DNA of 64,000 nucleotides from Chryseobacterium tructae (GTDB lineage: Bacteria; Bacteroidota; Bacteroidia; Flavobacteriales; Weeksellaceae): positions 992,001 through 1,056,000 of the forward strand of contig NZ_JAUFQR010000001.1 of assembly GCF_030409875.1 (NCBI RefSeq). The letters are read 5' to 3'. The position numbers and the translations under genes are program-made. The notes under the pieces are model-generated. The model ran no database searches. It was not told the origin of the DNA and worked only from the letters and a program-made list of their open reading frames with translations. Numbering within the stretch: the first letter of the stretch is position 1; every line of letters begins with the position of its first letter. Positions 7,957 to 21,065 of this stretch are shown piece after piece.

Positions 7957-9402
7957 ATGAAAAAGCAAACGATCAAAGAAATCCTAAAGGATTACAAGAA
8001 AGTATTACATCATGACATTACAGTTTACGGATGGGTAAGATCATTCCGTGCTAATCGCTTTATTGCACTTAATGATGGTTCTACGATTAATAATTTGCAG
8101 ATAGTTGTTGATTTCGAAAATTTGATGAAGAACTTATCAAGAATATTAGCACAGCTTCTTCTCTTAAAGTTGTAGGTGAAGTAGTGGAAAGCCAGGGAGC
8201 AGGACAATCTGTAGAAATTGTTGCTAAAAAGATTATTATTTTAGGAGATAACTTTACAGAAGAGCTTCAAAGCACCATTCTTCAGCCTAAAAAGCACAGT
8301 TTAGAGAAACTTCGTGAGCAGGCACATTTAAGATTCAGGACCAATTTATTTGGAGCTGTTTTCAGAGTACGTCACGCAGTAAGTTTTGCTGTTCATTCAT
8401 TCTTCAACCAAAACCAGTTCTTCTATATCAATACTCCGGTTATTACAGGTGCTGATGCTGAAGGAGCAGGAGAAATGTTCGGAGTTACCAACTTCGACTT
8501 GAATAATATGCCAAGAACGGAAGAGGGAGAAATTGATTTCGCTCAGGACTTCTTCGGGAAAAAGACCAACCTTACGGTTTCCGGACAGCTTGAAGGAGAA
8601 ACTGCAGCAATGGGATTAGGAAGAATCTATACATTCGGACCTACTTTCCGTGCAGAGAATTCAAATACTACAAGACACCTTGCAGAATTCTGGATGATTG
8701 AGCCGGAAGTTGCCTTCAATAACCTTGAAGATAACATTGATCTTGCAGAAGATTTCCTAAAATATGTAATTCAATATGTATTGGATCACTGTAAAGATGA
8801 TCTTGAGTTTAGACAAGCGTTTTGAAGAAGAACAAAAATCAAAACCGGAAAAGGAAAGAGCAAAAGAAGGTCTTATCGAAAAGCTTGAAAATGTAATAGC
8901 TAAGCGTTTTAAGCGTGTAAGCTATACAGAGGCTATCGAAATTTTAATGAACTCAAAGGAGAACAAAAAAGGAAAATTTGCCTATCCTGTTGAAAGCTGG
9001 GGGACAGATCTTCAGTCTGAGCATGAAAGATTTTTGGTTGAAAAACATTTCGAATGTCCGGTTGTATTGTTCGATTATCCGAAAGAAATCAAAGCTTTCT
9101 ATATGAAGCTGAATGAAGACAACAAAACGGTAGCTGCAATGGATGTTCTTTTCCCAGGTATCGGTGAAATCATCGGTGGATCTGAAAGAGAAGCAAGATT
9201 AGACGTTTTAAAACAGAAAATGGCAGATATGCATGTAGATGAGCACGAACTTTGGTGGTATTTAGATACCAGAAAATTCGGTTCTGTACCCCATGCAGGT
9301 TTCGGTTTAGGGTTAGAAAGACTCGTTCTTTTTGTAACGGGAATGACGAACATCAGAGACGTAATTCCTTTCCCAAGGACGCCGAAAAGCGCTGAATTCT
9401 AG
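7957..9402 (+). CDS. asnS: Asparagine-tRNA ligase, two frameshifts in this sequence
   Basis: Charges tRNA-Asn with asparagine in the cytosol. The frame is broken twice, and the repaired protein is about 482 residues, the normal length. The N-terminal OB-fold is visible as [20 protein letters not shown]. Class II motif 2 is [18 protein letters not shown], and motif 3 is [12 protein letters not shown] near the end. Break 1 is at 8121-8123: restoring one T to TTT after GAAAA recovers [12 protein letters not shown]. Break 2 is at 8808-8810: restoring two T gives [13 protein letters not shown]. The three pieces together have no gap in the family pattern, so the gene is almost surely intact in the cell. 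A terminator follows at 9411. Confidence 0.93.
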
Positions 9403-11109: not shown

Positions 11110-11478
11110 TTAAGAAATAAGGAATACAGTATCACTTATTCTTTTGAAGAGGCTGAATGTATTGATCTGTTTTCCAAATTCTTTATTTTCCCAATACACT
11201 TTTCCGTCTTTATAATCATTAACCAGAGCAAAACTGCCACCATTGATTTTTAAGAATGCGATAGCAGGAAAGGGCAGTTCCTCCAGATCTTCATGTTCCA
11301 GTTTTACTACCATGGCTTCAATATCAAAATCATCTTTTAATATATTATAAAAACTGAAAAAGGTATAATCTTCCACTGGAATATGGTAGTCTTTTATTTT
11401 TTTGGTTTTTATATTTTGTTGTATAAATTTTTTCAGCAAAAAATTAAAAGAGGTTAAGTAGTTATTTTTTTCAATCAT
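11110..11478 (-). CDS. C39-peptidase-like domain protein without catalytic residues
   Basis: Last gene of the lanthipeptide operon, 122 residues, soluble. Residues 66-115 resemble the second half of a C39 peptidase domain: ELPFPAIAFLKINGGSFALVNDYKDGKVYW, where real C39 peptidases have a catalytic His after GG (GGHF). Here Ser82 stands in its place. The whole protein contains no cysteine, so the nucleophile is missing too. Similar degenerate C39-like domains occur at the N-terminus of Bacteroidota VKOR-type proteins. A leader-binding or scaffolding role in peptide maturation is a guess from context. The start at 11478 leaves 15 bases after the DUF6625 gene. The family match is moderate and should be tested by structure prediction. 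Confidence 0.5.
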   Translation of the reverse strand: MIEKNNYLTSFNFLLKKFIQQNIKTKKIKDYHIPVEDYTFFSFYNILKDDFDIEAMVVKLEHEDLEELPFPAIAFLKINGGSFALVNDYKDGKVYWENKEFGKQINTFSLFKRISDTVFLIS

Positions 11479-11493
11479 AAATGCGGTTAGTTT

Positions 11494-12729
11494 TTAATAG
11501 ATATAGTATGCATTTTCGCTGATACGGCTTAGAGGATTTCTTATACTTATCTTATAAGGAATGCTTTCTTCATTTTTAAAATGAAAATCAATCGTACTAA
11601 TTACCTTTTTACTTTTTCCTATCCACTGATTATCTTTAAGCTTATAAAGAGAAAATTGATTGTAATGAAGATTTTGTTCTAGTATATTGAGAATAACAAG
11701 TTTATTTTGATCTTGCGGATAAAATGTAAGATGAGATCTTCCAATTTTATAGGATTGTTCTTCAAGAAAGTTAATATGTTGTTTTTCGGTATAGGAAAGA
11801 AGCTTCGATTTGGACAATAGAAACCTGTAATAGATATGTCTGTTGCTTTTCTTTATTTTTTCCCTTATTTTCTTTAAGGAATACGTGAAGGTATTGAACG
11901 AATAATTGATCCCCTTTGGAGAAATTGAAAAATTGCCTTTAGATCTAATCGGATCAATAAAGAAATACGGATTATCTTTGACATTGATAAGGTGAATCAA
12001 TAGGTATTGCTTTTCAGTTATACTATTAACAATATTTCCTTCTATCCAATGATGAATGACTCCTGAATAGGTAAATTCCTGTACTATATTTTTATGATAA
12101 TACTTAATTTCCTTTTGAAGTTCGAGTCTTCTTAAAACAAGGGTAAAGCTTTCAATTTCTGTAGTAATATCTGTAATGTCTTTGGTGTGAACAAGGTCAA
12201 ACTCAAAGTTACATTCATCAAAACAAAAGTGTCGCCTATTTTCTAAAATATGAGCGTAATCTTTACTTTGTTTAAAAAGAGTAATGCATTGCTCATTGTT
12301 TCTGAATAAAGTAAAGAACCCGGCAGGATAATTTTTAAGAGGCGAGATCACATCATATTTTTTCAGCATTTTCTCGGTAATAAAATATCTGATATTACCA
12401 AAAACAATATCAATATCACAATATCCCCAAAAGTCATAATTTTTCAAATACTCCTGAAAAATAAGACCATAAGTAGGTTTAAAATCACATAATTTATAGC
12501 CATCCAAAATATTGATGGAAAGATTCAGCTTTTCACTGGCAATTTTACTGAATTCACTTAGATCATTGATTTTTATAAAATGGACATTGGCTATATGAAA
12601 AGGAGCTTCCAGATTGGTAAATATGAAAAAATCTACATCCGGATTGTATTTGCAGCTAAACAAAAAGTGACTGAAATAGGAAGGCCAGCTTTTCCCAAAA
12701 TAACAGTTTATTAAAGCAATTCTAGTCAT
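11494..12729 (-). CDS. DUF6625 family glycosyltransferase-like protein
   Basis: A 411-residue soluble protein. The N-terminal half matches the DUF6625 pattern: RIALINCYFGKSWPSYFSHF, then CKYNPDVDFFIFTN, YKLCDFKPTYG, and FWGYCDIDIVFGNIR near residues 100-114. CDID sits where GT-A enzymes carry the metal-binding DxD, so a nucleotide-sugar transferase activity is likely but unproven. The C-terminal 170 residues are less conserved and unassigned. It begins one base after the stop of the LanB gene, so it is translationally coupled to lanthipeptide maturation enzymes. This suggests that the peptide, or a partner, may be glycosylated. It could also be a passenger gene. Confidence 0.65.
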   Translation of the reverse strand: MTRIALINCYFGKSWPSYFSHFLFSCKYNPDVDFFIFTNLEAPFHIANVHFIKINDLSEFSKIASEKLNLSINILDGYKLCDFKPTYGLIFQEYLKNYDFWGYCDIDIVFGNIRYFITEKMLKKYDVISPLKNYPAGFFTLFRNNEQCITLFKQSKDYAHILENRRHFCFDECNFEFDLVHTKDITDITTEIESFTLVLRRLELQKEIKYYHKNIVQEFTYSGVIHHWIEGNIVNSITEKQYLLIHLINVKDNPYFFIDPIRSKGNFSISPKGINYSFNTFTYSLKKIREKIKKSNRHIYYRFLLSKSKLLSYTEKQHINFLEEQSYKIGRSHLTFYPQDQNKLVILNILEQNLHYNQFSLYKLKDNQWIGKSKKVISTIDFHFKNEESIPYKISIRNPLSRISENAYYIY

Positions 12730-12730
12730 C

Positions 12731-15700
12731 CTACGTCAGTTTTTTCATATTTAATAATGAATCATAACTTTTGTGTAAAAAATAATACAGAATAGATTCA
12801 TAGAGATTAGGTTTTGAGGCAAACATTCTGTTGATGAACATGTGGATATAGCTTACTACTAATGATTCAACCATTTGCTCAGACTGGAGCTGTTTGATCT
12901 CAGCAATATAGGGAGCCGTTTTTTTTGTTCTGGTGTTTACTATTTTACTAAAGTCATTATTTTCTATTAAAAGATGAAGGACGCTACTTCTATTATCCCT
13001 GTATTTATCCTTTAGAGCTGCTTTAGAATCTTCATCTACCATACTACTATATCCATTGGCAAGCCGGTTCATTATATCTCTCTTTTGAGTTCGACTATAT
13101 CCAAAATCATCCAGGATTCTATCAATTCCTACAATGGCAAATTTCCAGGTAACTGTTTCTGTTAATTCTGCTTCTTTTAATAAACTGCAAACACATTCAC
13201 TGTCAAAATGGAAAATACTTTCCATGTGATCAATGGTAGATTCTCCATATCGTTCGATCTCTCTGTTGTAGGTATCCATAACGATTTTGTGGATGATCAT
13301 TTCCTGAGTCAAATATTTATCAAGCAGCTGATAAACCTGATTTGAAATGTTATGATTCTCAGATGAAGTTAAAAAACGAAGTCTGATATGGTGATCCGGA
13401 TCGCTATATCGCATGAAAAACCATTTTTTGATAATCCCTTTTTTAATAAGGTTATTGGCAAATTTACAAATGACATTTTTGATAATCTGATCGGTAGCCT
13501 TTGGGCTGCAATAGATCTTATAGAAAAGCCATTCGCTTCCTGGAACGAAATTTCTAATTACCGTATTTTTAACAGTAGGAAGTGGCAGTATTTTATTTTT
13601 TTTACTGCTTATATTATTCCATGGAATAAGAAATTCATTACTGTGTTTATTTCCATCAATATCTTTTACAATGCTTTCATACTGATGAGATAGGCTTTCA
13701 AAAACCCGTATGCTTTTTTCCTTGGTAAGATGATCAAGTAATATTTCCAGGGACACATCCTCATTCATAAATACAGGAAGCTCCATATCTCTTTCTGCAA
13801 AAGTAAAGATCTCAGGAATTTTCCTTTCCTTTAAATAATCTCTGAAGGTACTTATAGATGCTTGTTTTCCATTAAAAATTTTCTCATAAGACAGGTGCCA
13901 TGATGTTCTTGATAAAATAACATTATTAACCATGACCCTTGGAAGATAATCATAATTGGTAAACATCCCCCAATTCCAGGAATAAGAGGGAGTTGTATTC
14001 TGATACTGGAGATCACAAAGAAAATGATAAAGAGGTACTTTATGTAAATTATAATTGTGCGCAGACGAAAGACTTGGAATAACTTCTTTATTGTATTTTT
14101 TAGAACGAAGGACAATTCTATCATTTTTGATAGAAATCATCAGGTCATTCAGATAAATTGGTTCACTACCAGTGCTGTGAGGAGTAAGAATTGGGATTTC
14201 GTATTTTCTTAAACAAGGTCTAAGAAGAATATTTCCAACTCTTGGTTGTGGAGTATGAGCAATTTCGGCAATGATTTGATTTTCAAAGAAATTTTCTTCC
14301 TGCAATAAAGCCGCTTTTACAGATTCTTCCAACTGGTCGTCCAGATGACAAAAACGTCCGATAAACGTTGATGATGATGGCCCATCTGTGAATTTATTGA
14401 AAATAATAGGTTGTTTTTCCTGATCCTCATAAATTTGTACGAGCGAAGACATTGAAAATGGAACATTTTTATTTTCATGTAAAAATGGTACCAAATCATC
14501 CTGTGTAAGCTGTATTGAATGATGATTGTTTTGGACAGCATCAATTAATTTTTTACCTAAAAATTCATTCCATTTTAGAGATCCTCGAACTACATTGGAA
14601 GTGTTTTCAGATTTAAACTGAATTCCCTCAATCAAATCAGGAGTGTCATGATCCGAATGTAATGGATAATTGATACCTGATAAGGGGTCAAGTGCTAATA
14701 ATAAAGGAATTTCTTGCTGATCGTATCTTGCTGTAAATGCTTTTTTGAAATTTTCCAGCTCCTCAATAGTGTCTTCTGTTCCAATTTGAAAAGCTAAGGA
14801 AATTACCTTTTTAAAATCTTTAAAGATATTTTTATGAAGTGAATTAGAAGTATTGCCTTTTAATAAATCAGTTTGAAGAATATTTTTCTTGTTGCTTATA
14901 ATTCCTATGGTATTTAAGATTTGATAAATCTTATCAATAGCATTACCTATTTCGTGGGTTTTATTTACTTCCTGTACAATTTCAAATATGGAAATGAGCT
15001 TAGTTATAAGCTGTACATCATCATTATTATTTTTTGAAGCAGGGATCTTTATTTCTTTTAAAAACTGATAGATAGAATCCTGAAAATGTTTGTCAGTCAC
15101 TTTTGGAGAAAGTTCACTGACAAGAATTTTTGAATCGATAAGTTCATTGATGTAGTCAAAGCTATCTTCATAAGAAATATCCTGATTAACCAATATCTCT
15201 ATGATGGATGGAAGTTTTAGTCCACTTTGACAAGCTTTTATAATTGAGTTTAGGTATTTATTTTTTTCTGTAGAAATAACTTCATAATTCAGCATTGCAA
15301 CCTTTGATGTAGGCTCAATATAGCGATATTTGTTTTTAGTGCTGTATATTGTATTGTTGGTATAGAATTTACAGGATTGTCTTATAAATTTTTTTTGCTC
15401 TAATCGTTCAACAATATCATGGATAACCTGCATATCTAATCTGGCATGCACTTTATCCTGTTTTTTATCCAATGTTATCAGGGTATGATCATCCCACTGT
15501 CCCATGCTTACTCCGGCATTGGTACCAAATGGAATCGTTCTGAAATGAATTCTTAGCCAATACTTAAGTAAAGATTTCTTCATTTTATCAACTTTCTCCT
15601 TTGGAAGTTTTTTTTCATCCCAAAGAATAAGCTGGTCATATAAGTCCGGTGAAGATAGATAAATGGCTTTTCGGAAACCCTCTGTATTGATATCTTTTTC

Positions 15701-15781
15701 CCACTCTTCAATACTTGTTTGTGGAAACGAAGGAGTTCTCAGTACATAAAAGTTTAATCTTTCTATATCGTTGTATTTCAT
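12731..15781 (-). CDS. Lantibiotic dehydratase (LanB-type, full length)
   Basis: A 1016-residue class I dehydratase. The N-terminal part (starting NFYVLRTPSFP, up to about 740) is the glutamylation domain. It uses Glu-tRNA to activate Ser and Thr of the precursor peptide. The C-terminal 260 residues are the elimination domain of the SpaB_C or thiopeptide type: SEWLFYKIYCSP near 748 and FMRYSDPDHHIRLRF near 790. Together they convert Ser/Thr to dehydroalanine and dehydrobutyrine. Both domains are on one chain, unlike split LanB systems. Its ATG overlaps the LanC stop by four bases (ATGA), and DUF6625 follows after one base. The internal domain borders are approximate. Confidence 0.9.
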   Translation of the reverse strand: MKYNDIERLNFYVLRTPSFPQTSIEEWEKDINTEGFRKAIYLSSPDLYDQLILWDEKKLPKEKVDKMKKSLLKYWLRIHFRTIPFGTNAGVSMGQWDDHTLITLDKKQDKVHARLDMQVIHDIVERLEQKKFIRQSCKFYTNNTIYSTKNKYRYIEPTSKVAMLNYEVISTEKNKYLNSIIKACQSGLKLPSIIEILVNQDISYEDSFDYINELIDSKILVSELSPKVTDKHFQDSIYQFLKEIKIPASKNNNDDVQLITKLISIFEIVQEVNKTHEIGNAIDKIYQILNTIGIISNKKNILQTDLLKGNTSNSLHKNIFKDFKKVISLAFQIGTEDTIEELENFKKAFTARYDQQEIPLLLALDPLSGINYPLHSDHDTPDLIEGIQFKSENTSNVVRGSLKWNEFLGKKLIDAVQNNHHSIQLTQDDLVPFLHENKNVPFSMSSLVQIYEDQEKQPIIFNKFTDGPSSSTFIGRFCHLDDQLEESVKAALLQEENFFENQIIAEIAHTPQPRVGNILLRPCLRKYEIPILTPHSTGSEPIYLNDLMISIKNDRIVLRSKKYNKEVIPSLSSAHNYNLHKVPLYHFLCDLQYQNTTPSYSWNWGMFTNYDYLPRVMVNNVILSRTSWHLSYEKIFNGKQASISTFRDYLKERKIPEIFTFAERDMELPVFMNEDVSLEILLDHLTKEKSIRVFESLSHQYESIVKDIDGNKHSNEFLIPWNNISSKKNKILPLPTVKNTVIRNFVPGSEWLFYKIYCSPKATDQIIKNVICKFANNLIKKGIIKKWFFMRYSDPDHHIRLRFLTSSENHNISNQVYQLLDKYLTQEMIIHKIVMDTYNREIERYGESTIDHMESIFHFDSECVCSLLKEAELTETVTWKFAIVGIDRILDDFGYSRTQKRDIMNRLANGYSSMVDEDSKAALKDKYRDNRSSVLHLLIENNDFSKIVNTRTKKTAPYIAEIKQLQSEQMVESLVVSYIHMFINRMFASKPNLYESILYYFLHKSYDSLLNMKKLT

Positions 15782-16932
15782 CCTATGTTCATTAAATAAA
15801 TTTTATCCCAATCCTTAGCTTTGTCAGGATATTGATAATCCAATAATACCATTCCTACTCCGGAAATACCTTCCAGAAGCCCAGTATGCTCCACCCATAC
15901 ATCATTTTTAGGATCATAAGGGAACTTTATTCCTTTTTCCAGTTGTTGTAATGTAATAGACATCCAGTAATCGTGAGCTTCTTTGAGTTCCTCTCGTTGA
16001 AAAATTTTGAAAAATTTATTGAAAATATGTGATATTCCCGATGTACCATGACAAATTCCTGTATCGATACAATCATGTGTTGTACTAGAAAATACGCCTG
16101 ATTTATCCAACCTGATTTTTGCTGAATTTAGAGTCATATAAAGACAGATATCTTTTAAGTTTTCATCCTGCAAAACGGTGTAGGCCTTCCATAGGCTGAG
16201 TGCTACACCTAGATCACCATAGCACCATGCCAGCCTGTTTGATAGTTGTTTTTCACCGGTAACGACATTAATTTTTGAAGGAAATATATGGGCTGCATTT
16301 TTATTTTCTTCATAGAGGTTTATAAGAAAATTAACCGTTCCTCTGATTAATTTCTCACAGGTTTCTTTCTCACAGTTTTTATGATAACATTCTGCTAAAA
16401 AAGAAATGATGGATGGTAAGCCATGAGCCAGACCAAGATCGCAGATATTATCCTCTTTTACTATATGATCAATCCAAAAAAATGAATTGTTTTGTTCATG
16501 TTTTAAATGGTCAATATATGACACTATTTTTGCTACTGTGTCAAATCTTTGAATTTCAATGAAATAAAGACCTAATCCAATAAGACCTGTGAATAAATCA
16601 TATTCTTTTTTGTTTACACAGGTAGCTAGTAATTCTAAGAAAAATTCGATAGAATCTTCTTCTATTGCATCAATATCTTCATCAGTAATAATGTCGGCAG
16701 TATGTAAAAGCCTCATAAAATAGGTTACCGCCAGACTGCCACTGGCAAATGAATAATAAGGAGCTTCAGAAGCCAGGTCGATGAGCGTTTCAACTCTTTC
16801 AATCTCTACATCCTCATGGTAAAATAATGAATAATAACTACTGCCCAGGCTGAAGGTAATGTTTTCAGCTTTGTCCTCATTGCATTTTTTTGAAATTTCG
16901 TTTAGAAAAAAATCAATTTTATCTTTATACAT
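15778..16932 (-). CDS. LanC-type lanthionine cyclase
   Basis: A 384-residue LanC-like protein. The zinc ligands are visible: Cys237 in LAWCYGDLG, and Cys294-His295 in TGICHGTSGI. The GLAHGLPSI stretch near 167-175 is another family hallmark of the alpha/alpha barrel. The enzyme adds cysteine thiols of the precursor onto dehydrated residues to form (methyl)lanthionine rings. It overlaps LanB by four bases and the LLM oxidoreductase by eight bases, so stoichiometric translation is likely. Length is close to that of NisC (about 410 residues). Confidence 0.88.
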   Translation of the reverse strand: MYKDKIDFFLNEISKKCNEDKAENITFSLGSSYYSLFYHEDVEIERVETLIDLASEAPYYSFASGSLAVTYFMRLLHTADIITDEDIDAIEEDSIEFFLELLATCVNKKEYDLFTGLIGLGLYFIEIQRFDTVAKIVSYIDHLKHEQNNSFFWIDHIVKEDNICDLGLAHGLPSIISFLAECYHKNCEKETCEKLIRGTVNFLINLYEENKNAAHIFPSKINVVTGEKQLSNRLAWCYGDLGVALSLWKAYTVLQDENLKDICLYMTLNSAKIRLDKSGVFSSTTHDCIDTGICHGTSGISHIFNKFFKIFQREELKEAHDYWMSITLQQLEKGIKFPYDPKNDVWVEHTGLLEGISGVGMVLLDYQYPDKAKDWDKIYLMNIG

Positions 16933-17842
16933 ATTGGCTTAATATTTCGATAGCGGTTAAAGAATCTTTGTGTGTTCTGGAGATATTATTAAAGATAAAT
17001 TCATTGTATCCATAAAGTTCTTTGAACTCCAGAAGTTTTTCATGAAAAAAGTTTCCGTCTCCGATAAGATTTATACTATTTAAATCATTATTGGTACTAC
17101 TTTTGGCAACTTTTATTGCTTTTTGTTTTGTTTTATGACAGCAGCCAGAAAAGGTCAATACCATTGAAGGTTCTTTTCCATGTTTTGCTTTGTATTCTGC
17201 TTTAAAGTTTTGTAACTCTTCTTTTAAATAGTCTTTGTTGGATCCTACATGAAATATAGATCTTGCAAAGTTAAGATCATGCTGTAAAGACACATTCAAT
17301 CCGGAATGTGAAGAGCCCATATACCATACATCAGGAATATTACCTTTATAAGGCGGAATAATTAAATCTTTTTTAAGAAATTCACTTTCTTCCCTTAAGA
17401 AACTTAAGGTAGATTCCAGTTTTGGAAGGAAAGATGAATAGTAGGTATCCTTATCAACACCTGCATTAAAGTATTGAAAATCATATTCACCAACCAAACC
17501 TTTTACAAATCCAAGATCTATTCTTTTTGGGTATAAGCTGGACAACAGTTTGTAATTATGAGCTACTCTGAATGGACTTTGCAGAGGCAGGATAATTCCT
17601 GCAATTCCTATTTTTATTTTATCTGTTAATCCTAATAAGATGGGAAGGAGCATTTCAGGAGTAGACCAGGCCATATCATGTGCTTTTGAAAAATAATTTT
17701 CAGTAACCCAGAATCTTGAGAAACCAATTTCGTCTGCTCTTGTAGCATAATCGATGATGTCGTATAATGACTTTTTAGAATTGTTGAGTGAATTTTCTCT
17801 GATTCCAAACTCTAAAAGACCTATTTTTAATTTTTTTGCCAT
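16925..17842 (-). CDS. LLM-class flavin-dependent oxidoreductase of the lanthipeptide operon
   Basis: A 305-residue luciferase-like TIM-barrel protein. Family features are KIGLLEFG at the start, YATRADEIGFSRFWVTENYF near 32-52, and IKIGIAGIILPLQSPFRVAHNYKLLSSLYPKRIDLGFVKG, which holds the flavin-facing strands. LLM enzymes use FMN or F420 for oxidation or reduction. In the lanthipeptide field a luciferase-like, F420-dependent LanJ reduces dehydroalanine to D-alanine, and that precedent fits its place between precursor and cyclase. Bacteroidota lack F420, so FMN would be the cofactor. Activity here is an inference. It is the first enzyme gene after the precursor, behind a hairpin. Confidence 0.8.
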   Translation of the reverse strand: MAKKLKIGLLEFGIRENSLNNSKKSLYDIIDYATRADEIGFSRFWVTENYFSKAHDMAWSTPEMLLPILLGLTDKIKIGIAGIILPLQSPFRVAHNYKLLSSLYPKRIDLGFVKGLVGEYDFQYFNAGVDKDTYYSSFLPKLESTLSFLREESEFLKKDLIIPPYKGNIPDVWYMGSSHSGLNVSLQHDLNFARSIFHVGSNKDYLKEELQNFKAEYKAKHGKEPSMVLTFSGCCHKTKQKAIKVAKSSTNNDLNSINLIGDGNFFHEKLLEFKELYGYNEFIFNNISRTHKDSLTAIEILSQYV

Positions 17843-17856
17843 GATAAGCTTTTAAA

Positions 17857-17888
17857 AGTAGCTACTCCCTGGGGAGTAGCTTTCTTTT
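17857..17888 (-). terminator. Hairpin between precursor and enzyme genes, likely partial terminator
   Basis: GCTACTCC (17861-17868) and GGAGTAGC (17873-17880) form a perfect 8-base, GC-containing stem with a 4-base loop. In the minus-strand transcript it lies 15 bases after the precursor stop and just upstream of the LLM start. Only four U follow it, so leaky termination or 3'-end protection is expected. That would give more precursor than enzyme. Confidence 0.6.
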
Positions 17889-17903
17889 GTAAAATGTTCT
17901 GAT

Positions 17904-18089
17904 TTAGAATGATCCGCAGATACATGCATTAGAAGATCTAGTACTTCCAGCTGTACATGTCCAGTGTGTACAGTCAGCAATAGATGTGAATGCTAATTTT
18001 CCTGCCTTTACAGACTTCATTTCGTCAGAGTTCAATTGTGATAACTTCTCTTTTTTAAGAGTTAACTTTTTTGTAAGCTTTTTGCTCAT
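17904..18089 (-). CDS. Class I lanthipeptide precursor peptide
   Basis: A 61-residue peptide. The leader (about 1-30) is lysine-rich, with LTLKKEKLSQLNSDEMKSVKAG. This fits the Bacteroidota natural-product leader pattern KLxLxKExIxxLxxxEMxxIxGG, with AG where GG is usual. The core contains Cys40, Cys45, Cys56 and Cys58 and ten Ser/Thr (35, 36, 41, 44, 46, 49, 50, 52, 53, 60), enough for up to four rings. It is followed by LLM, LanC and LanB genes. The cut site is inferred after Gly30. No dedicated protease or ABC exporter gene is in the window. Ring pattern and activity are unknown. Confidence 0.85.
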   Translation of the reverse strand: MSKKLTKKLTLKKEKLSQLNSDEMKSVKAGKLAFTSIADCTHWTCTAGSTRSSNACICGSF

Positions 18090-18204: not shown

Positions 18205-19044
18205 CTAGTCACGTTTATTTTTACTGTAATTAACATCAATATTTGAAATAAAACTTCCCATGCTGGTCTCCCAATCTCCCTGACTCTGATAATGATATAA
18301 CAGATCATTTGACAATGTCTTCTTGGCTGATATTCCAAATATGAAATCTGTATCCTCCTGAGGAATACTTTCTACGAGTTGTAAGGTAATAGCGAGTTTA
18401 TCCAGATGAGTATAGATGAGTTTATATTCCTGAAGATCAATTGTTTGCCATCCTGTTGTGGTGGTTTTGAATATTATATTTTCATTAAGCAGGGATTCAT
18501 AAGGCAATCCATCCTTAACGCTATATATATTTAACTTTAAAGTAATTTCTTTATATCTTGAACTGGGAATAATATGAAAGCTATAGCTGTTAAGCTTAGT
18601 CCAGTTGTAAATATTGAATATTTGACCTTGTTCAATGGTAGGAACGTTTTGATCAAACATTTTAGAGAAGGTAAACATAGGTCTTTTTTTTGCCCCTATT
18701 ATTTCTCTTTTAGTTTTTTGTCCTGTCAGATTAATTTCCCGAATGGCATTCACTTTTTTGCCTAATTTGATATCAGCATTCTTGATGATTTCATTTACCG
18801 TAAGCTTTTTACTTTCATATCCGTTAGCTTCAATAACGACATAATCATTTTTATTCGTGTTATTAGGAATCTCCAAAGAATATTTACCATTGATATCGGT
18901 AATCGTACTTACTTTTTCTTTCCCTATACTTATTGAACTATAGGAAACAGCTTCTCTATCTTCATTCGTGACAGTACCCGAAATTTTTTGTGAAAAAACA
19001 GGCATAGTAAGTAATAAGGCACAGATGGCCATTACAATCCTCAT
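18205..19044 (-). CDS. Secreted carboxypeptidase-like regulatory domain protein
   Basis: A 279-residue exported protein: signal peptide MRIVMAICALLLTMPVFSQ, then a carboxypeptidase-regulatory-like (CarbopepD_reg_2) beta-sandwich at about 22-95, seen as ISGTVTNEDREAVSYSSISIG and TITDINGKYSLEIPN. The C-terminal 160 residues are unassigned and probably beta-rich. In Bacteroidota such domains sit at the front of TonB receptors or on free-standing surface proteins. It is 115 bases upstream of the precursor gene on the same strand. It may be linked to export or immunity of the lanthipeptide, but this family is so common that the link is only positional. Confidence 0.65.
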   Translation of the reverse strand: MRIVMAICALLLTMPVFSQKISGTVTNEDREAVSYSSISIGKEKVSTITDINGKYSLEIPNNTNKNDYVVIEANGYESKKLTVNEIIKNADIKLGKKVNAIREINLTGQKTKREIIGAKKRPMFTFSKMFDQNVPTIEQGQIFNIYNWTKLNSYSFHIIPSSRYKEITLKLNIYSVKDGLPYESLLNENIIFKTTTTGWQTIDLQEYKLIYTHLDKLAITLQLVESIPQEDTDFIFGISAKKTLSNDLLYHYQSQGDWETSMGSFISNIDVNYSKNKRD

Positions 19045-19440: not shown

Positions 19441-21065
19441 TTATAGATTTTTTACATTTTCCAGTCCCAATTCTTTCATAGAAATCTCCCGCATTTCCAC
19501 TTTTCTGATCTTTCCTGAGATGGTCATTGGAAATTCATCCACAAATTTCCAGTATTTCGGAACCTTATAATGGGCAATTTTTCCTTTACAATAGTCTAAA
19601 AGCTCTGTTTCAGTGATTGTAAATCCTTGTCTTACTTTTACCCATGCCATTACTTCTTCGCCGAATTTTTCACTCGGAATGCCAATGATCTGAACATCCA
19701 GAATATGGGTATAGGTATATAAAAAGTCCTCAATTTCTTTAGGTGAAATATTTTCTCCACCGCGAATGATAAGGTCTTTAATTCTTCCGGAAATGGTAAT
19801 ATATCCGTCTTTGTCCATCACTGCCATATCTCCGGTATGCATCCATCGGGCATCATCCAGTACTTTTTTTGTGTTTTCGGGATCATTCCAATACTTCAGC
19901 ATCACAGAATATCCTCTTGTACAAAGCTCACCATGTTCACCACGCTTCAATATTCTTCCGTTCTCATCAACGATCTTTATTTCGAGATGATCCTGAACCG
20001 TTCCCACTGTACTGACTTGTTTCTGCAAAGGAGTCCCAATTAAAGTCTGAGTAGATACAGGAGACGTTTCTGTCATTCCATAACATATACTCATTTCTTT
20101 GATATTCATCAGGCTTTCTACTTTTTTCATGATTTCAGGAGGGCAGACTGACCCAGCCATTACCCCGGTTCTTAAACTTGAAAAATCATAAGAGTCGAAA
20201 TCTTTTACAGCAAGTTCGGCAATAAACATGGTAGGGACACCGTAAAGAGATGTGCATTTCTCATCCGAAACAGCTTTTAATGTAATGTCCGGATCAAAAC
20301 TATCATTTGGAATGACCATGCAGGCTCCATGAGTTGTACAACAGATATTTCCGATAACCATTCCGAAGCAGTGATAAAAGGGAACAGGAATACATACACG
20401 GTCTTTTTCCGTATACTTGAGTCGGATACCAATAAAATATCCATTATTTAAAATATTATGATGGGAGAGGGTAACACCTTTTGGAAATCCTGTAGTTCCT
20501 GAAGTATATTGAATATTGACAGGATCATCAAATTGTACATGTTCCTCGAAGCTGTGAAGTACCTCATCAGAAATATCCTGCCCGTTGTTTACAAATGCCT
20601 CCCAGTTATCATCAAAGAAATTTCATGCTCCAAAGTTGGACATACTTCCTTGGCATATTCAACCATTTCTTTGTAATTACTGGTCTTAAAGCTTAAAGAT
20701 GAAAAAATAAAACGAACCTCAGATTGATTCAGTACATAGGTAAGTTCATGGGTTCTGTAAGCCGGATTGATATTCACTAAAATGGTTCCTATTCTGGCTG
20801 TTGCATACTGAAGAAGAACCCATTCATAGCGGTTGGAAGCCCATATTCCGATTCTGTCACCGGTCTTAGCTCCTAAAAATATCAATGCTTTGGCAATAGC
20901 AGTGGTTTGATTGTAAAATTCCTGGTAGGTAGCTCTGTAATCCTGATGAACACAGACAAGTGCTTCTTGATTGGGAAATTTTTCGACAGTACTTTTCAGA
21001 TTTCCTCCAATAGTCTGTCCTAATAATGGAACCTCAGAAGCTCCATACACATAAGATAAAGGCAT
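19441..21065 (-). CDS. AMP-binding acyl-CoA synthetase, one frameshift in this sequence
   Basis: Activates a fatty or other carboxylic acid with ATP and joins it to CoA. The repaired protein is about 541 residues, the usual length. The P-loop signature YTSGTTGFPKGVTLSH lies around 20500, the second motif reads YGMTETSP, and the catalytic lysine motif SGKIRKVEMRE is near the C-terminus. The frame breaks at 20618-20620. In the coding sense, GAAATTTC should be GAAATTTTC, which restores HEIFFDDNWEAF. Without repair the front part ends about 40 codons before the P-loop. The substrate cannot be read from sequence; FadD-like medium-chain enzymes are the closest type. Confidence 0.88.

Follow-up and report, generated by a model that had tools for sequence, protein, structure and literature searches.

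The minus strand of the Chryseobacterium tructae DNA that we analysed (a stretch of 64,000 nt, here the window) carries a six-gene block at positions 11110-18089 that is a genuine and conserved lanthipeptide operon of class I. Its distinctive parts are an LLM-class flavin oxidoreductase from an uncharacterised clade and an unstudied module made of a DUF6625 protein and a C39-like protein. Read in the sense of transcription, the gene order is LanA-LLM-LanC-LanB-DUF6625-C39-like, and the LanC gene overlaps both the LanB gene and the LLM gene by a few bases. An earlier sequence-only reading of this DNA had proposed these six genes, their families and their tight spacing, and coordinates and profile matches agree with it on each of these. 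The joint interpretation that we regard as rather probable is that a class I lanthipeptide would undergo FMN-type oxidation by the LLM enzyme and sugar transfer by DUF6625 with its C39 partner, with export and processing in trans. Gene content, conservation, linkage, the loss of C39 residues and the two unmatched F420 markers were obtained by computation, and from these we infer every chemical step. A literature search returned no publication on this cluster, and the term DUF6625 occurred in none of 5.39 million papers searched.

The LanA precursor (17904..18089, minus strand, 61 aa) matches the NF038153 'class I lanthipeptide' leader model at 29.9 bits (cut-off 22), and its leader segment LTLKKEKLSQL fits the LxLxKx5L motif and is followed by an Ala-Gly end. 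The putative core behind this Ala-Gly is KLAFTSIADCTHWTCTAGSTRSSNACICGSF, and a recount of its 31 residues yields the four Cys and ten Ser/Thr that had been claimed for the core of the 61-residue precursor. Four Cys and eight Ser/Thr sites are conserved in 13/13 precursors (10 of them distinct, 12 from Chryseobacterium and one from Hymenobacter locus L223), with a Thr/Ser swap at three of the conserved sites, so this comparison of the precursor family finds conservation where the sequence-only reading had named variation of the core as the result that would count against it. The Hymenobacter L223 core, TSIANCTGWTCTAGSTRSSNLCICGGGY, is almost identical to that of C. tructae and the leaders differ, the cleavage-type site being Ala-Gly in C. 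tructae and Gly-Gly in Hymenobacter. These cores probably represent a new, strongly conserved lanthipeptide family, and they define a conserved core family that spans two Bacteroidota genera. The same leader features recur more widely, as the portion of the Walker 2020 survey used here (PMC7268733) describes an LxLxKx5L leader and a GG-type site for Bacteroidetes class I precursors, reports that such clusters commonly include a gene for a C39 protease, and assigns pinensin to precursor family I 17. The C. tructae leader and its GG-type site are like those of the surveyed clusters, whereas the sole C39 protein of the operon is catalytically dead. The pinensins of Chitinophaga pinensis are likewise class I lanthipeptides of Bacteroidota.

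Between LanA and LLM lies a hairpin, AGCTACTCC-loop-GGRGTAGCT (17860..17881, minus strand), whose stem was drawn by eye and whose position comes from a list of terminator-like sites, where it is entered on the plus strand only; the region has six such sites against 3.1 expected. By eye, the stem is present in 12/12 Chryseobacterium loci and absent from the Hymenobacter locus. This hairpin may possibly act as an attenuator or processing stem.

The full-length LanB dehydratase (12731..15781, minus strand, 1016 aa) contains both dehydratase domains, Lant_dehydr_N (PF04738, 383 bits) and Lant_dehydr_C (PF14028, 213 bits), and can be aligned almost end to end with PDB 9g04 and with NisB 4wd9. The LanC cyclase (15778..16932, minus strand, 384 aa; PF05147, LANC_like, 149 bits) retains the motifs GLAHG, RLAWCYG and GICHG, which we take to have zinc-binding and catalytic roles. 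Separate LanB and LanC proteins, together with a LanA that has a class I leader and a Ser/Thr/Cys core, are what characterises class I, and the assignment to this class made in the sequence-only reading is upheld by the LanA leader model and by the families and motifs of LanB and LanC. The glutamyl-tRNA-dependent LanB would dehydrate core Ser/Thr and LanC would close the thioether rings, probably in the pattern S36-C40, T41-C45 and S52-C56 plus a fourth ring closed at C58, to judge from the conserved spacing. A system from the same genus with the same class I LanA/LanB/LanC set is ChmABC of Chryseobacterium sp. OV715 (Lee 2023, PMC9993889). The part of that paper drawn on here describes a class I lanthipeptide with three ring-forming Cys and seven dehydrations, and production in E. 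coli that needs the cognate tRNA-Glu/GluRS, but mentions no LLM, DUF6625 or C39-like protein.

The operon is present in 12/173 genus genomes, C. tructae included, and all 12 loci (C. tructae and 11 others) have the order LanA-LLM-LanC-LanB-DUF6625-C39-like; because this order recurs, the cluster is not a chance arrangement. LanA orthologues (76-100% identity), the LLM gene (83-100% identity) and DUF6625, which is frame-broken in G124, occur in the same 12 genomes, and weaker LanA matches to other precursors (best E 1.9e-6) occur in 31 further genus genomes. In 11/12 loci the cluster is flanked by the asnS/rpoN side and, at its other end, by an acyl-CoA ligase. In G019 the cluster has other flanks, yet an upstream CarboxypepD/hydrolase gene is still beside it at this other chromosomal site (L108). 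Locus L223 of the Hymenobacter genome G181 has the order LanA-LanC-LanB-long DUF6625-C39-like-hydrolase, and HlyD and ABC genes come next on the opposite strand. For the enzymes and for the C39-like and upstream genes, Nei-Gojobori dN/dS values of C. tructae versus L103, L105 and L111 range from 0 to 0.15; for LanA they are 0.18-0.23 against two of these three loci, and LanA is identical in the third. The dS versus L105 and L111 is mostly near or above saturation. The dS values relative to L103 are uneven (LanA 0, LLM 0.016, DUF6625 0.304), which suggests recombination within the operon. A separate observation concerns asnS and the acyl-CoA ligase (7957-9402 and 19441-21065), which are spread over more than one frame each in C. 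tructae and are single frames in a relative. This points to assembly indel errors, and the LanB, LanC and DUF6625 frames are intact despite these split frames.

The LLM enzyme (16925..17842, minus strand, 305 aa; PF00296, Bac_luciferase, 71 bits) has TIGR03558 (MsnO8 family) as its best curated model, at 122 bits and thus under the 167-bit cut-off, and its nearest solved relative is 4us5, a luciferase-like monooxygenase. LanB and LanC genes lie within 1.5 kb of the LLM gene in 29/30 genus loci, a count drawn up apart from 12 further listed genus places without a locus, and the one locus that departs from this is also the weakest of the 30 by E-value. A scan of genome contigs covers its best 80 loci, where LanB is found within 10 kb at 15/15 LLM loci with E <= 1e-36 and at 0/65 of the remaining loci (E 4e-29 and weaker, some clipped by contig ends). 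The 15 linked loci are from Chryseobacterium, Longitalea, Tenacibaculum, Pedobacter, Larkinella, Flavobacterium and Neolewinella, and the LanB/LanC neighbour profiles were built from loci of the same analysis. In a midpoint-rooted tree of 92 sequences that includes 57 of the 65 non-LanB loci, the other eight being longer than 420 aa or unmatched, a single clade with a support of 1.0 takes in 34/34 lanthipeptide-linked LLMs, which make up 21 groups when clustered at 98% identity. In a larger tree, 29 added homologues of unknown context all fall inside the clade and 0/57 of the non-LanB loci do so (support 0.98). Clade-type LLMs (E <= 1e-35) are also present in 5/120 Hymenobacter genomes, with LanC at 5/5 and LanB at 2/5 in the stretch examined. 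The link between LLM and lanthipeptide genes is one-way, with many class I loci having no LLM: an LLM match is absent at seven genus LanB loci (L118, L119, L125, L126, L128, L129 and L130), and Hymenobacter L223, which has the same core, has no clade-type LLM, its generic LLM gene (24% identity) lying 2.4 kb upstream of LanA. Thus, of the 'unusual tailoring genes' noted earlier, the LLM is a recurrent neighbour of LanB/LanC in Bacteroidota and the long DUF6625 with its dead C39 partner is the part that is unusual.

Regarding its chemistry, the LLM would most likely oxidise the peptide with FMNH2 and O2, forming a thioether S-oxide or a hydroxylated residue. FMN-type oxygenation appears the likelier chemistry because the host seems to be without F420. 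The F420 markers CofE (PF01996, E <= 10) and CofH (TIGR03551, E <= 1e-5) have 0 matches in the C. tructae genome, which is 97.3% complete, and each marker scores over its cut-off in 3/14 control genomes. Another conceivable role is that of a dehydroamino-acid reductase like LanJC, which would convert Dha/Dhb to D-Ala/D-Abu using a cofactor such as NAD(P)H or FMNH2 in place of F420. We consider this unlikely, even though the LanJC enzymes also belong to the LLM class, have lanthipeptides as substrates and, as with the birimositide cluster LLM and LxmJ of lexapeptide, are encoded inside lanthipeptide clusters, and even though eight conserved Ser/Thr against four Cys would leave up to four Dha/Dhb for reduction. 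LanJC reductases are described as F420H2-dependent in the sections of PMC13348032 and PMC10373908 used here, whereas CofE and CofH are unmatched in C. tructae, and the MsnO8 model at 122 bits, although below its cut-off, scores well above the F420 models at 15.8-17.8 bits. F420-dependent reduction of the LanJC type is therefore disfavoured on these matches, and the 'reduced residues' of the sequence-only reading find no support as a product of the LLM. The linkage data connect an LLM clade with the making of class I lanthipeptides in a seemingly F420-lacking host, where its chemistry is testable.

An LLM gene is also shared with actagardine-type clusters, where it is presumably GarO with a role in S-oxidation. 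The genome that holds L172 contains an actagardine-like cluster (L215) with an LLM gene running off the contig end, and this LLM, a short fragment of 145 aa, falls outside the 34-member Bacteroidota lanthipeptide-linked clade, so that the C. tructae enzyme does not group with this short GarO-type fragment. The Actinoplanes LLMs at L172 and L191 were also considered as actagardine enzymes and were rejected when the searched motif was not found near either.

The DUF6625 protein (11494..12729, minus strand, 411 aa; PF20330, 196 bits, residues 6-252) is a long form and a putative GT-A-type glycosyltransferase. It extends approximately 140 residues beyond most relatives, with 96/120 among the matches listed (551 found) having 270-306 aa. 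Residues D105 and D107, which make up a DxD motif, are invariant in 47/47 aligned sequences (C. tructae plus 46 relatives chosen from the 120 listed), and at least three of these 120 carry the UniRef name 'Glycosyl transferase'. In Hymenobacter, GT2, GT4 and GT61 genes surround two of the three shorter DUF6625 genes, and the third has no GT neighbours by eye. Ten profiled neighbours of Chryseobacterium DUF6625 include VKOR, thioredoxin, ABC, HlyD and DUF6734 proteins, as well as LanC-like and GT25-like proteins that score just under the cut-offs, a setting unlike that of classic sugar loci and one that speaks against the glycosyltransferase reading. A profile search found no solved structure that matches DUF6625; when DUF6625 and the C39-like protein were compared with solved structures, the one match was a tRNA synthetase at E 0.38, which we took as chance. 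There were no weak Pfam glycosyltransferase matches among the 47 DUF6625 members, and the operon contains no nucleotide-sugar or flavin-reductase gene. On its conserved residues and relatives, the long DUF6625 is probably a glycosyltransferase that would most likely glycosylate the peptide with a sugar taken from a nucleotide donor. The glycosylated residues of the sequence-only reading are plausible to this extent, by way of a long DUF6625 with DxD.

The last gene encodes a free-standing C39-like domain (11110..11478, minus strand, 122 aa; PF03412, 25.5 bits, cut-off 22). The catalytic triad of C39 peptidases is Cys, His and Asp; the C. tructae protein has zero Cys, and its catalytic His and Asp positions are changed. 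All three catalytic residues are missing in 6/6 C39-like proteins versus present in six exporter C39 domains, and neither Cys nor His is conserved among 17 aligned C39-like proteins. The gene nevertheless has a dN/dS of 0.06-0.12 in three comparisons. Judged by its residues and substitution rates, the protein is a dead peptidase under purifying selection, so that its naming as C39-like was right as to family, with the peptidase residues lost. A role as leader peptidase is ruled out by the loss of the catalytic residues.

Within the genus, a C39-like gene lies no more than 1.5 kb from 15/15 long DUF6625 genes and from 0/14 other DUF6625 loci. Long forms are those alignable along the whole C. 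tructae DUF6625 at E <= 1e-106 (one is frame-broken), the 14 others comprise 11 frames of 276-345 codons and three of 387-399, and one further place stands apart from both sets. Three of the 15 long DUF6625/C39-like pairs sit in NRPS loci. In addition to condensation, adenylation and carrier domains, each of these loci encodes a UDPGT-type glycosyltransferase as well as an alpha/beta hydrolase. Profiling identified an ABC protein in one of them and the other two have similar frames, and a phosphopantetheinyl transferase comes next after the pair in 2/3. The long DUF6625 and its dead C39 partner are thus an unstudied module common to RiPP and NRPS loci. Taken together, they may constitute a peptide-glycosylating unit in which the dead protease serves DUF6625 as adaptor or in substrate docking. 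Simple docking of the leader by the dead C39 domain is disfavoured because an NRPS product should have no leader peptide. A bolder version, which we hold only tentatively and rate as somewhat unlikely, is a two-part peptide glycosyltransferase with a protease fold repurposed as substrate adaptor and portable across ribosomal (lanthipeptide) and nonribosomal peptides. We know of no previously described glycosylated class I lanthipeptide, and if this version were true the product would be the first.

The same pair of proteins could alternatively function in export, immunity or envelope anchoring, for example by joining the peptide to a surface glycan. The lack of an exporter in the operon is consistent with such a role, as is the location of genus DUF6625 genes near VKOR/thioredoxin, ABC and HlyD genes. 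Dead C39 domains also occur in HlyB-type exporters, and the C39-like domain (CLD) of HlyB, as described in the portion of PMC8277102 used here, is likewise a C39 relative without the catalytic Cys; the C. tructae protein differs from it in being free-standing, 122 aa long and encoded beside DUF6625, with no ABC fusion. We nonetheless judge this role quite improbable: a transporter domain is missing from both proteins, the invariance of D105 and D107 fits an enzyme, and in the three NRPS clusters the pair has a UDPGT-type glycosyltransferase in its locus together with an ABC protein, the latter profiled in one. The product could also be a core class I lanthipeptide only, with LLM and DUF6625 as passengers or as enzymes for other substrates, as might be supposed from the Hymenobacter cluster that has the same core without a clade-type LLM and from the broken DUF6625 frame in G124. 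This is very improbable given the low dN/dS of LLM and DUF6625, the tie of the LLM clade to LanB/LanC, and the retention of long DUF6625 beside LanB in Hymenobacter.

The operon likely has a seventh member in the upstream gene for a CarboxypepD-like protein (18205..19044, minus strand, 279 aa; PF13715), since this gene is kept beside the cluster in G019 where the flanks are otherwise different. The extent of the unit given in the sequence-only reading was therefore right for its six genes and one gene short. The upstream gene encodes 542-553 aa with a C-terminal alpha/beta hydrolase domain in 6/12 loci (6/6 long forms profiled) and 279-296 aa without this domain in C. tructae and five others, of which L105 was profiled. 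The C. tructae protein of 279 aa is 68% identical to the first 279 residues of the 542-aa protein, which in turn has 31% identity over 541 aa to the Hymenobacter L223 hydrolase protein, and the C. tructae window contains no hydrolase remnant (best E 1.2). The hydrolase domain seems dispensable because C. tructae and five others are without it. A profile search across the seven genes found no exporter or intact protease domain. Elsewhere, the C. tructae genome has two open C39 + ABC frames (733 and 735 aa), and a third C39 frame is interrupted by a stop. A C39-ABC exporter whose gene lies outside the operon would probably remove the leader at Ala-Gly and export the peptide in trans, and maturation by unclustered proteases has precedent in the part of PMC8960859 consulted.

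Several other loci were observed in the course of this analysis. The C. tructae genome has a second class I locus (L122, G000:C1:2453917-2457077) with a LanC gene, LanB-like frames that are split into three, and seven leader matches under the cut-off, and at L123 (G000:C1:1569550-1570572) it encodes a 920-aa DUF4135 + LANC_like protein of LanM layout with small frames nearby. The genus LLM clusters L114-L117, L131 and L132 have two LanC genes, and in L116 and L117 the CHG motif is present in only one of the two, so that paired or regulatory LanC proteins are possible. In L100, DUF6734 is a neighbour of DUF6625 and of a LanC-like gene; in L223 it lies upstream of LanA. Finally, precursors whose core starts with F(T/L)SIxxC occur with a split LanB in G151 (L118) and in a Hymenobacter genome (L239), and perhaps represent a wider family.
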